Origin: Nodosilinea sp. E11
GTDB taxonomy: Bacteria > Cyanobacteriota > Cyanobacteriia > Phormidesmidales > Phormidesmidaceae
DNA: 64,000 nt
Assembly: GCF_032813545.1 (NCBI RefSeq)
Contig: NZ_CP136520.1
Location: 5,016,001-5,080,000, forward strand
Reading direction: 5' to 3'
Shown: positions 2,980-7,338 of the stretch, in pieces
How positions within the stretch are numbered: the stretch's first letter is position 1
How the letters are laid out: each line of letters starts with the position of its first letter
Translations under genes and position numbers: made by a program
Notes under the pieces: generated by a model
What the model was told of the DNA's origin: nothing
The model's database searches: none
What the model saw: the letters and a program-made list of their open reading frames with translations, nothing else

Positions 2980-3070
2980 GGACGTTCTGGGAAATAACTG
3001 ACCTGGCCCATCTTATCGCGCAGGGTGGCTGTGGTGGGGTAGAGGGTGCGATCGCCCCGATGGATAGTAT

Positions 3071-3182
3071 AGCTATAGCCGAATGTCACTGAAATAAGCG
3101 TTTCGCGATCGCCGAAAGCCTTGATTTACTGTAGGGTGGGCACTGCCCACCAGCCTTAATTCAGTGCCATTCAGCTATAGCC
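3071..3182. repeat. 112-bp imperfect inverted-repeat element (MITE-like)
   Basis: The arms at 3071-3093 and 3160-3182 are reverse complements at 20 of 23 positions, with the shared core GAATGNCACTGAA. The interior holds two smaller palindromes, TTCGCGATCGCCGAA and GGTGGGCACTGCCCACC. No coding potential is evident. Its size and structure resemble miniature elements or REP-like hairpins. A transposase source was not found in the window. Confidence 0.6.
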
Positions 3183-3202
3183 AATCAGGTTAGGACAGCG
3201 CC

Positions 3203-3276
3203 GTCATTCCAGCGCAGGCGGGAATCCACTAGCCCGTAATTGCTCTCGAAGGGATTCCCGTTTCCACGGGAATGAC
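3203..3276. repeat. Palindromic dispersed repeat of the GTCATTCC...GGAATGAC type
   Basis: Two internally palindromic halves face each other. GTCATTCC at 3203 and GGGAATCC nearby are mirrored by GGGATTCCC and GGGAATGAC ending at 3276. This pattern is a widespread bacterial intergenic repeat recognisable by its flanking GTCATTCC. It lies 20 bp from the inverted-repeat element 3071-3182, so the gap upstream of the ParA-like gene is repeat-rich. Confidence 0.6.
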
Positions 3277-3616
3277 AGCCAGGGATCGTTGCAAGCAACT
3301 GGGTTCTGCGATCGCGCCACCTAACCCCCGCAGCAGTAGGCATTTCACTGGTTTGTTCAGCCAAGCTGTTTATAACCTCATAGTTTATGAAGCATCTTTG
3401 TAATAAAAATAAACCACTATTTTAGCTGCCCAGGCTGTTAGAAACCCAGATGATAGTTAACCCGGTATTTTGGGTGCATTGAAGAAATAGATTTGGCAAC
3501 CGTAACGCATCGGCAATACCCCCTTTTATAGATAAAGCTTTCATAAAATTAACTCAGAGTTTCCCGCTACAGATGATTTCTCCAGTACGACTAAAGTAAA
3601 GCCACACAAAACCCCC

Positions 3617-4957
3617 ATGAATTTAGAGCAAATCCTACAAGATCTACCCCTGGATGCGGCTGAAGTTGTTGTTGAAGGAAACTTCTCCAGGGCTTTTCTA
3701 AAAGCTTTGGGGTTTGGAGACCTGGAAATGGTGCCCGGCTTTAAAGTCGGCAAGCTAGCCGTTGACCATGCTGTTCGAAAGAACACTGAGAACGATATTT
3801 TCTTGCATACTCAAACAAAACCCTATCTTTACATGGAGGTAAAAGGGCGATCGGAGAATTTAGGGGATGAACACCATCCTGATTATCGCAAGGCTGCTTT
3901 ACAGCTAAAGCGTTACCTCCTAGATCCGTCCTCTGCATCGGTTCAGTGGGGTATTTTAACGAACTCGCTCCACGTTCAGCTATTCCGTAAGCACGGCAAA
4001 GTGGTCCATCCTGTAACCCCATGCCTGCCGCTAGGCAAAGATGTAAATCGTATCGCTAAAGAGATCAAGCAGCGCATTGAAACCCCTCAACGAGCGTTGA
4101 TGATAGCTGTTTATAACAACAAAGGTGGGGTAGGTAAAACCACAACAACATTGAATTTAGCGGCTACCCTTGCTTTGCTCAAAAAGCGCGTTTTGATTAT
4201 AGACTTTGATCCCAACCAAAGTGATTTAAGCGATGCGCTCAATTTGCAACCCCTTAAAGGGAGAATTTTAGATGTTCTTAAAAGTAAAGAATCTACTATT
4301 CGTGAAATCATCACAACCTATAAATTTGAGCACCCTAGGCTAAAACAGCCCTGGGGCTTTGATATTATTCTTGCAGATGAAGACTTAGTCACTGAATTGA
4401 GTGAAATTAAAGTCAAGCAGCAGGTTAAATTTAATGCTTTGCGAAGAGCTTTGGAATCAGTTCAAAATGATTATGATTATATCCTGATTGATGCACCTCC
4501 CAACTGGCGAATTTTTGCCCAAAAGGCTGTTTGTGCTGCCGATGTAGTACTGATTCCCGCTCGACATGACAATCTACATTCCTTGCAAAATGCAGGCACT
4601 GCAATCACGCAGTTCATCCCAGAAGCGCAGGCGAAACGACGGGAGGTTGGAGATTCTGGCCCGATCGCACTCCCTATTTTTATGAACAATGCCTTTCGCC
4701 CAACCGGTCCTGCCATTCAGCTAATGCATCAGGCAATTGCCACAATCATCAAAGAAACCAGGAAAAAAACTGGAGGCTTTGATCTAAAACCCTATTTTTA
4801 TCCCAAATCTCGAAAAGGCCATGAAAATCTCAAAATGATTTCCATTCCCTATATGGCCTACATTTCTAGAGCCGATTTTATGCATATGCCTGCTGCATTT
4901 GCCTTCAAACCTGCCCGTGAGCAGTACCTAAACCTTGTGAAGGAGTATTTTCTCTAA
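3617..4957 (+). CDS. HSDR_N-like nuclease domain fused to ParA/MinD-type ATPase
   Basis: A 446-residue two-domain protein. Residues about 1-150 resemble the N-terminal PD-(D/E)XK domain of type I restriction HsdR: a V-D50-H strand, then M-E74-V-K76 as the putative catalytic E-X-K, then LQLKRYLL and WGILTNSLHVQLF, which match the usual QLxRY...GVLTNG pattern. Residues about 160-446 are a deviant-Walker ParA ATPase with NNKGGVGKTTTTLN (168-181), LIIDFDPNQSDL and DYILIDAPP. The stop codon TAA shares its last A with the ATG of the next gene, so the two are co-translated. The gene is visibly more AT-rich than its neighbours, suggesting transfer. Possible roles are partition of a mobile element or an antiviral/genome-surveillance function. 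The domain calls rest on motifs; the function is inferred. Confidence 0.85.
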   Translation: MNLEQILQDLPLDAAEVVVEGNFSRAFLKALGFGDLEMVPGFKVGKLAVDHAVRKNTENDIFLHTQTKPYLYMEVKGRSENLGDEHHPDYRKAALQLKRYLLDPSSASVQWGILTNSLHVQLFRKHGKVVHPVTPCLPLGKDVNRIAKEIKQRIETPQRALMIAVYNNKGGVGKTTTTLNLAATLALLKKRVLIIDFDPNQSDLSDALNLQPLKGRILDVLKSKESTIREIITTYKFEHPRLKQPWGFDIILADEDLVTELSEIKVKQQVKFNALRRALESVQNDYDYILIDAPPNWRIFAQKAVCAADVVLIPARHDNLHSLQNAGTAITQFIPEAQAKRREVGDSGPIALPIFMNNAFRPTGPAIQLMHQAIATIIKETRKKTGGFDLKPYFYPKSRKGHENLKMISIPYMAYISRADFMHMPAAFAFKPAREQYLNLVKEYFL

Positions 4958-5634
4958 TGAGCCTTTCAGACGTTGGCAACCTAATGTGCCTACCCTTCGA
5001 TGAAATTGAGCCAGGCGAACCCACTGAGGTTCACGAATATTTGATTCAAGCGGCGGCCAATCAGCTTGGGCCTCAGGGCCGCAACTGGATTCCTCTAGTC
5101 GTCAAAGAAATTGCCCCCGACCAGTATCAGGTGATTGGCAATACCTTTATCTACGCCGTCGCGGCTGAGGCTGACTTAGCAGAAGTGTGGTGCATTATTG
5201 CCGACGATGCCCCTGAAACCGTAGCCATTACCCAGGCCTTAGCCCAGGAAACAGCCCCCAAAACCAATCTCTCCACCGCCAGCAGGAGCGAAATTTCGGC
5301 GGCCCTAGACTATTTGCTCAGCCAGCCTAGCAGCCCGCTCAAGGGGGTAAGCCATGCCTCGCTCGTGGCTCGGCTAGATGCGGCTCCCCGGCAGTATTGG
5401 AAAAATTTGCAACCCATCACCAAGCTGGGCTGTCGCATTACTGCTGGCAAGAAGCTCAAGGCCCTGGAGCAAATTTTCTACCTGACCCCAGAGCCCATGC
5501 CCGAGGTGATCACCGATCGCCAACTGTTAGAGTCGCTCAGTACTCAGCAGCTCAAGGCCATGGCGCAAAAACGCGACATCAAAGGGCTGTCAAAGCTGAA
5601 GAAAGCAGATTTAGTCAACCTGCTGGTGGCTTAA
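4957..5634 (+). CDS. ParB-like protein with C-terminal Rho_N/SAP-like domain
   Basis: A 225-residue partner of the upstream ATPase, starting on the last base of its stop codon. Residues about 23-85 fit a ParB/sulfiredoxin-fold core: EYLIQAA, then IPLVVKEIAPDQYQVIGN where ParB has PIVVR...YELIAGER, then AEVWCIIAD. The Arg-rich CTPase motif GERRxR of canonical ParB is replaced by GNTFIYA, so CTP hydrolysis may be absent. A middle region of about 85-180 has no recognised domain. The last 40 residues (LLESLSTQQLKAMAQKRD...LKKADLVNLL) look like a Rho_N or SAP helix-extension-helix motif, which binds nucleic acid. GC content is higher than in the upstream gene. No helix-turn-helix is evident, so it is not a standard ParB. 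Confidence 0.75.
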   Translation: MSLSDVGNLMCLPFDEIEPGEPTEVHEYLIQAAANQLGPQGRNWIPLVVKEIAPDQYQVIGNTFIYAVAAEADLAEVWCIIADDAPETVAITQALAQETAPKTNLSTASRSEISAALDYLLSQPSSPLKGVSHASLVARLDAAPRQYWKNLQPITKLGCRITAGKKLKALEQIFYLTPEPMPEVITDRQLLESLSTQQLKAMAQKRDIKGLSKLKKADLVNLLVA

Positions 5635-5655
5635 CCGGCGTTGAGAAACAACACT

Positions 5656-7338
5656 TTAGGGAGCTAGCTCACCTAAAATCTTGAATCGCATATGGTTAAC
5701 GGCCAGGTCACCCAGGCGGGCGACGGGGCTACCCTCCGGCAAAATCAGCTTCTCAAAAGAAATGTCTTTGCCCATTTCTACGTGCCACCAGGGCAAGCCC
5801 ATGAAGAACCGGGTGGGGTAGGGGCCGCCCTCCTGCACATCATCGGGGTTAGACTCCATGGGTACCCAGCCAAAGCCAGGAATATAAAACTCAATCCAGA
5901 CGTGGTTGAATTCGGGCTCTAAATAAATGCCGGTCTGGTCGGCCTGGGCGGGGCACTTATAGCGCCCCACGGTGCGGCAGGCAATGCCATTGAGACGCAT
6001 CAGGGCCAGCAGCAGCCCGACGTATTCGCCGCAGGAACCGCGCCCGCGCAGCAGCACCACGTCAGGGGTTTCAATAGCCGGGGTGACGGCGTAGGAGAGT
6101 TTGTCGTAGACGTAGTTGCGAATGCTGAGCACCTGGCGCAGCAGGTTGGTTTCACTGCCAACGCTATCGCGGGCGGCGGCCTGGATCAAGGCATTATCCA
6201 TAGCCAGGTCGTCGTCGTCGATCAGGTAGCGGGGGCCATACTCGGGGGGCAGGGGTGGAGCCGCTTCAACCTGACGGGGGGTGAGTTGGTATTTAATGCC
6301 ATAGACCTCGACGAGGGCTTTCCAGCCGAAGAGGTGACGCTGGTTGGGGTCGAGGTGATCGAACTTAAAGCTGGCCACCCGTTCGCCGCCCTGCTGTACT
6401 TCGTCAAAGGGTAGGCCCACTGACTCTACCGATTTCACCCGCTGGCGATCGGTACTGGTGGGAAAGGCAATGCGCCACTCGACATTTTCGAGGGGGGCGG
6501 CATCTTCGAGGGTGTCGATCTCTTCAACGTAGGTCATTTCGACCAGGTAGCCGGTGGAGCGGCAGTAGTTGGCCTCTTTGTACCAGCGATAGGTGAGGGG
6601 GTGAATCAGGGTGCGATCGCGAAAGGTGAGTTCGAAGGGCACCTCACTGTTGGGGTCGTCGCGCACGTAGGCCTCTTCGTTGGCGTAGGCCACCCAAAGG
6701 GTGCCGCTCTCGGGGGTGGTGTGGGGCGGCACCGCCAGCCCGGTTGGGGTGGCGAAGGGGGTGAGCATTTTGACGATTAGCTCACCAGTGGCGCGATCGA
6801 GACAGTAGACGGTTTGCTCGGTCTGGTCGCAGGCCCAGAGGTAGTCACCCCACACCGAGAGATTCTCGATGCCAATGCCGGGGGCCGAAAATTGGGTGAT
6901 GCGTTGACCAGAGTTGCGATCGCAGACATAGATACAGCCGCCTTTTTTGCAGCTGACGTAGAGGGTTTTTTCCCAAACGGCCACCCCATCAGCGGGGTAG
7001 GGCAGGGTCAGCACCGGCACCGGCTGAATATCGGCCAGAGAAGTGGTATAGACGGTGTGGTCGCAGCAAAACCACAGGTGATCTTGCCAGCAGGCAATGC
7101 CCGTCGCTCCATAAAAGGCTTCGGCCTGACGAGAATTGAGAATTTTGACCTGCTCGGTTTTAGGATCGAGGCGCAGCAGGTAGCCGCGAAAAGGATCTAC
7201 TGCCACCAGGCTGTCGCCGTCTAGGGCCAGACCATAGATGGCCTTGACCCCAATCGGCTGAATCAGGGGCACGGCTCCCGCCAGGGGCAGAGCCGAAGAC
7301 ATGGGCGAAAAAGATTCAGGCATAACCAGCGGGGCCAC
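5656..7338 (-). CDS. Transglutaminase-like cysteine protein with N-terminal beta-propeller-like region
   Basis: A 560-residue protein whose C-terminal part is a transglutaminase-like (papain-fold) domain. The triad is visible as Cys436 in RGSCGEY, His479 in EFNHVWIEF and an acidic/amide residue in VPMESNPDD. Residues about 30-230 contain repeated Leu/Val-rich strands such as SLVAVDPFRGYLLRLDP and KTLYVSCKKGGCIYVCD, typical of an NHL/SMP-30-like propeller that may bind ligand. No clear signal peptide is seen. It could be a protease or amidase rather than a cross-linking enzyme. It is convergent with the ParB-like gene, 21 bases apart. An alternative ATG six codons in is possible. Confidence 0.85.
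   Translation of the reverse strand: MAPLVMPESFSPMSSALPLAGAVPLIQPIGVKAIYGLALDGDSLVAVDPFRGYLLRLDPKTEQVKILNSRQAEAFYGATGIACWQDHLWFCCDHTVYTTSLADIQPVPVLTLPYPADGVAVWEKTLYVSCKKGGCIYVCDRNSGQRITQFSAPGIGIENLSVWGDYLWACDQTEQTVYCLDRATGELIVKMLTPFATPTGLAVPPHTTPESGTLWVAYANEEAYVRDDPNSEVPFELTFRDRTLIHPLTYRWYKEANYCRSTGYLVEMTYVEEIDTLEDAAPLENVEWRIAFPTSTDRQRVKSVESVGLPFDEVQQGGERVASFKFDHLDPNQRHLFGWKALVEVYGIKYQLTPRQVEAAPPLPPEYGPRYLIDDDDLAMDNALIQAAARDSVGSETNLLRQVLSIRNYVYDKLSYAVTPAIETPDVVLLRGRGSCGEYVGLLLALMRLNGIACRTVGRYKCPAQADQTGIYLEPEFNHVWIEFYIPGFGWVPMESNPDDVQEGGPYPTRFFMGLPWWHVEMGKDISFEKLILPEGSPVARLGDLAVNHMRFKILGELAP

Follow-up and report, generated by a model that had tools for sequence, protein, structure and literature searches.

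ParA and ParB are known as proteins that move DNA, not as proteins that cut it. Some proteins with the ParB fold work in restriction (GmrSD) or in plasmid conflict (Osa) (PMC5512222), and divergent ParB-CTPase-fold proteins on mobile elements are described as almost always orphans (PMC12704722). Here we analysed a 64,000-nucleotide stretch of DNA (the window, which lies within a 5.46-Mb contig) that holds a pair of genes: the first, for protein A, joins a restriction-type nuclease-like domain to a ParA ATPase, and the second, for protein B, encodes a ParB-like protein. We found the pair to be a discrete mobile cassette that is present or absent as a unit. Its best explanation, to which we assign a probability of roughly 45%, is a mobile module in which protein A is a DNA nuclease switched by ATP and directed by protein B, with defence against foreign DNA as its likely use.

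Domain make-up of proteins A and B

The pair and its neighbours are laid out as follows:

1319-2701: M17 aminopeptidase gene, neighbour of the pair
3617-4957, + strand: gene for protein A (446-aa open reading frame)
4957-5634, + strand: gene for protein B (225-aa open reading frame)
5656-7338, strand opposite to the pair: gene for a transglutaminase-domain protein, neighbour of the pair

The two genes meet in TAATG (4955-4959), where stop and start overlap by the one base noted in the preliminary description. That description also called the first gene AT-richer, and among the window genes we found GC3 to be 0.41 in A, 0.63 in B and about 0.7 in the neighbours.

Protein A consists of two domains, the first with a candidate active site:

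3617..4081, + strand: residues 1-155, PD-(D/E)XK (HSDR_N-type) nuclease-like domain (Pfam in relatives, AF2 topology, conserved residues)
3764-3766, 3836-3838 and 3842-3844, + strand: codons of D50, E74 and K76
4082..4957, + strand: residues 156-446, ParA (AAA_31) ATPase, stop codon included (Pfam, superposition on Soj)

The ParA half matches Pfam AAA_31 at E 7.5e-34 and superposes on Soj/ParA structures with Z 25-28, best on H. pylori Soj (Z 28.1 over 254 residues). Its Walker A reads KGGVGKTT with signature lysine K169, and K169, K174, D196 and D292 are invariant (77/77 relatives). Hence, as in ParABS, A has a ParA-type deviant Walker ATPase, and the full ParA ATPase that had been described behind a nuclease-like domain is indeed there.

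For the nuclease-like domain, the Pfam match of the window protein to HSDR_N_2 is sub-threshold (E 0.019); HSDR_N_2 matches 55 of 68 relatives of A, with a best E of 1.6e-8, and HSDR_N matches 19 of 68. The AlphaFold2 (AF2) model of protein A has a mean pLDDT of 92.9, and its N-terminal domain runs helix-strand-strand-strand-helix-strand, with D50 on strand 2 and E74-x-K76 where strand 3 ends. Judged by this model, the domain appears to have the alpha-beta-beta-beta-alpha-beta core of PD-(D/E)XK enzymes, in which these two strands carry D and ExK. All matches listed from a PDB fold search with A cover the ParA half, with none for the N-terminal domain, and a profile of that domain gave no meaningful match to PDB sequences.

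Conservation of the candidate active site is nearly complete: across 77 aligned relatives, E16, E74 and K76 never vary and D50 is retained by all but one, and the key residues of both the nuclease and ParA domains also hold in a divergent plasmid subfamily that is about 24% identical. The N-terminal domain as a whole changes fast, with a mean identity of 0.63 within the Nodosilinea set. Since median dN/dS in that set is 0.05-0.14, A and B are under purifying selection, though dS is near saturation. These results agree with the D50, E74-x-K76 site of a PD-(D/E)XK domain proposed beforehand, and protein A is predicted to cleave DNA.

Protein B has three parts:

4957..5259, + strand: residues 1-101, ParB/sulfiredoxin-fold domain (Foldseek, VIA, Pfam in relatives)
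5257..5496, + strand: residues 101-180, helical module with an NLSTAS.(E)EI motif (VIA, weak)
5512..5634, + strand: residues 186-225, Rho_N/SAP-like nucleic-acid-binding tail, stop codon included (Pfam, VIA)

The first part was matched to ParB by Foldseek (E 5e-7), aligned with the ParB fold by VIA at residues 8-99 (Z 12.4 over 89 residues) and recognized as ParB_N by Pfam in 67 of 69 relatives. GN(S/T)F(I/V)Y stands where GERRxR, the CTPase motif of ParABS, would be, and GE[RK]R occurs in none of 88 relatives of B; the ParA-binding motif of ParABS, LG[RK]GL, is likewise found in 0/88. P1-type ParB is also without the LG[RK]GL consensus (PMC12704722).

The helical module bears a weak likeness to the helical domain of GspK-type pseudopilins (VIA Z 6.0 to 5vtm_X over 70 residues). 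By eye, this module is tandemly doubled at three loci (L245, 9754-10695; L246, 9599-10537; L251, 7633-8553). Its NLSTAS.EEI motif, also by eye, may resemble ComEA-type helix-hairpin-helix sequences.

The tail matches Pfam Rho_N at residues 191-220 of the window protein; in relatives, Rho_N is found in 69 of 69 and SAP in 34 of 69, and VIA aligned the tail with the Rho N-terminus at Z 6.8. Hence, both a ParB-like core lacking GERRxR and a nucleic-acid-binding tail, as first described from the letters, are upheld. B of the divergent plasmid subfamily is without the Rho_N tail. The end of B in one chromosomal divergent pair (L253, 9666-10232) reads by eye as helix-hairpin-helix (GIGPKTINKIL), not Rho_N. 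A phage Rho_N protein (PMC11237433) was judged generic and unrelated to B.

Pairing, mobility and distribution

Genome and viral collections yielded 82 loci, with a match to A in 77 and none found at five. A is upstream of B on the same strand at 76 of the 82, with a spacing of -14 to +19 bases in 74 loci and of 211 and 610 bases in two; at one locus (L214), A is on the strand opposite to B. The distances of A and B correlate with r 0.87, compared with a maximum of 0.10 in 500 permutations. No recurrent third gene was found beside the pair across loci.

Copies at different chromosomal sites have in common an upstream element of about 75 bases:

3531..3604, + strand: upstream element, ATAAAGCTTTCATAAA ... 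GTAAAGCC (alignment of 12 upstream regions)

This element is probably a promoter/operator, and since copies at different sites share it, the mobile unit probably includes its promoter.

The cassette is delimited by comparison with relatives whose flanks are collinear:

3019..5655, unstranded: segment missing at the empty site of relatives, holding the pair and its upstream region

In three genomes (G046, G032 and G037), these flanks are separated by 42-119 bp in place of window ~3019-5655. In several Nodosilinea genomes the pair is bordered on one side by a small ORF that follows the M17 gene and on the other by the transglutaminase gene; in other genomes it adjoins other genes, i.e. there are several integration sites. 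Where the flanks were long enough for comparison (69 loci), GC3 was lower in the gene than in the flanks at 66 loci for A and at 65 for B, with mean gaps of 0.15 and 0.11, respectively. The tree of A splits several families (e.g. Leptolyngbyaceae and Nostocaceae), to which paralogues or naming could contribute. The earlier proposal of a transferred cassette is thus borne out by empty sites, several integration sites and AT-richness in nearly all hosts.

Some copies in close relatives appear broken or fragmentary: A is split near residues 75-80 at one locus (L086) and at 224-242 at another (L079), and close to the M17 gene of one genome, which has an intact pair elsewhere, a piece of B interrupted by a stop is left (G038:C12:129561-129767). 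Sequencing error is possible in each case.

The region upstream of the pair also holds repeats:

3068..3298, unstranded: palindrome-rich dispersed repeats, outside the module (matching places across the window's genome)

The preliminary description had remarked on a palindrome-filled upstream gap. The gap is palindrome-rich, but the palindromes are not tied to the pair: they belong to dispersed repeats, for which the genome has 48 matching places, and this ruled them out as parS. These repeats are of two kinds, abutting near 3173. Near the pair in relatives and on plasmids, we found no shared perfect palindromes or iterons, a search that degenerate or distant sites would escape. A 44-nt palindrome after B on pPg_01 was rejected, being absent from the related ABRG53g record.

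Of 386 cyanobacterial genomes sampled, 45 have B, and of 65 genomes belonging to the order, 26 have A; by record titles, all 80 matches listed from the genome scan come from cyanobacteria. The majority of copies are on chromosomes and some are on plasmids. Two Nostoc plasmids carry close relatives of the pair plus ParM, and a third carries a divergent pair plus canonical ParAB. Two Pseudanabaena plasmids carry the pair, one of them a 12.6-kb plasmid with a divergent pair, and L. boryana pLBA (NZ_AP014639.1; L260/L261) has a divergent pair as well. On the 12.6-kb plasmid and pLBA, no other ParA, ParB or ParM is annotated, which is tentative since the gene tables are incomplete. Since pLBA also bears genes for a terminase, several recombinases, DNA methyltransferases and a Rad52-type protein, it is a possible phage-plasmid.

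These plasmid copies bear on whether the pair is a partition module, in which the N-terminal domain of A would replace the usual DNA-binding extension, B would be a centromere-binding adaptor, and chromosomal copies would be relics or position other cargo. The ParA-then-ParB gene order, the superposition of the ParA half on Soj/ParA and the two plasmids with the divergent pair as their sole annotated partition genes all fit. We nevertheless consider partition unlikely overall, though possible for the plasmid copies: most copies sit in chromosomes, as cassettes with housekeeping genes around them, the Nostoc plasmids with the pair have ParM or canonical ParAB besides, all 88 B proteins lack GERR and LG[RK]GL, and a partition module would not need a conserved nuclease active site. 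Also against it, shared repeats were not found near the pair, in a search limited to perfect palindromes and iterons. The preliminary description had regarded a pair always found on large plasmids with parS-like repeats as evidence against defence; the copies proved to be mostly chromosomal, with shared repeats not found.

We rejected a phage origin, as searches of phage records matched neither B nor the N-terminal domain of the window protein. One divergent relative of A is similar to phage ParAs, among the matches listed in the ParA half only, and full-length matches in the phage and plasmid collections are to cyanobacterial plasmids only. PHROGs matches with E below 0.01 cover the ParA half of A and, in B, only the tail.

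One genus with genomes of ~2.5 Mb carries A in 11 of 11 genomes without an adjacent B. In the seven loci read from five of its genomes (L247, L248, L249 and L262-L265), this solo A adjoins an rpsB-like gene and has intact motifs; no B match was found in the three of these five genomes that were sampled. Solo A as a core gene suggests a cellular role, at least in that genus. Hence, we weighed a role in DNA maintenance, be it in repair, in recombination or in handling transforming DNA; A would then be a nuclease bound to the nucleoid, and B an adaptor that it can do without. Purifying selection also speaks for such a role; elsewhere, however, the pair has a patchy distribution, is AT-richer than its host and is broken in places, none of which would be expected of a housekeeping repair gene, and as a general explanation DNA maintenance is improbable. 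Least probable is that A has a restriction-like N-terminal domain that is regulatory or catalytically dead and binds DNA or protein only: its nuclease activity is predicted from sequence and model, and pseudo-nuclease domains exist in other families as a precedent, but D50, E74 and K76 are kept in 76-77 of 77 relatives while the domain diverges quickly.

Proposed action of the module

For the ATP-switched nuclease, we propose that the ATP-bound ParA domains of A would dimerize on DNA, which would place two PD-(D/E)XK domains next to each other. B would bind nucleic acid via its ParB-like, helical and Rho_N/SAP domains, and may recruit A, pick the DNA or trigger ATP turnover, so that cutting would be limited to the right target. 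For chromosomal copies, the most likely use would be defence against DNA that enters the cell from phages, from plasmids or by transformation; copies on plasmids and phage-like plasmids would serve the same function in conflict of element against element. The interaction of A with B, the choice of target and the biological role are what we infer here.

Defence or conflict fits because the copies are patchy, AT-rich, mobile and sometimes broken, and because ParB-fold proteins provide precedents. The choice of this reading rests on genome dynamics and conserved residues. Against it, solo A is a core gene in one genus, and copies occur on plasmids, two of them without other annotated partition genes, as those of a partition module would. 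Also against it, searches with PADLOC 2.0.0 returned only weak matches for A, in the ATPase region alone (best 7e-8 over 45 residues), and none for B, so neither protein was recognized as a component of a catalogued anti-phage system. Beside the pair, PADLOC matches are scattered among 114 neighbouring proteins, with no clear enrichment of defence genes (no control set).

We regard it as possible, at somewhat less than even odds, that the pair represents an undescribed class of DNA-targeting immunity or inter-element conflict, in which a restriction-type nuclease is governed by a ParA switch instead of a helicase or AAA+ translocase, and takes its direction from a ParB-like sensor. If the pair does fuse a working restriction-type nuclease to ParA, it would link partition machinery to genome conflict, and as a small two-gene system it is directly testable in laboratory cyanobacteria.

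Comparison with known systems

A description of a nuclease-ParA fusion was not found in the literature searched, a library with few subscription papers or preprints. With ParABS (Soj/Spo0J; plasmid ParA/ParB), the pair shares operon make-up, gene order and a ParA half that superposes at Z 25-28. In contrast to ParABS, A has a PD-(D/E)XK domain, B is without GERR and LG[RK]GL and ends in Rho_N/SAP, parS was not found, and the copies are mostly chromosomal cassettes.

The N-terminal domain of A has in common with the N-terminus of type I restriction HsdR (HSDR_N_2/HSDR_N) the D...ExK residues followed by a helix with conserved Q and Y. Unlike in HsdR, the domain is fused to ParA rather than to a DEAD/SF2 translocase, and no methylase or specificity subunit adjoins it.

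Osa and GmrSD, by description only, resemble B in using a ParB/Srx fold outside partition, in conflict between elements (PMC5512222); there the ParB-like domain is itself the NTPase or nuclease, whereas here a separate protein bears the nuclease-like domain. The divergent ParB-fold proteins of PMC12704722 are like B in their altered P-motif, their lack of the ParA-binding motif and their link to mobile elements; in contrast to them, B comes with a nuclease-ParA fusion in nearly every case. The pair looks like an undescribed variant of ParA/ParB-type modules.
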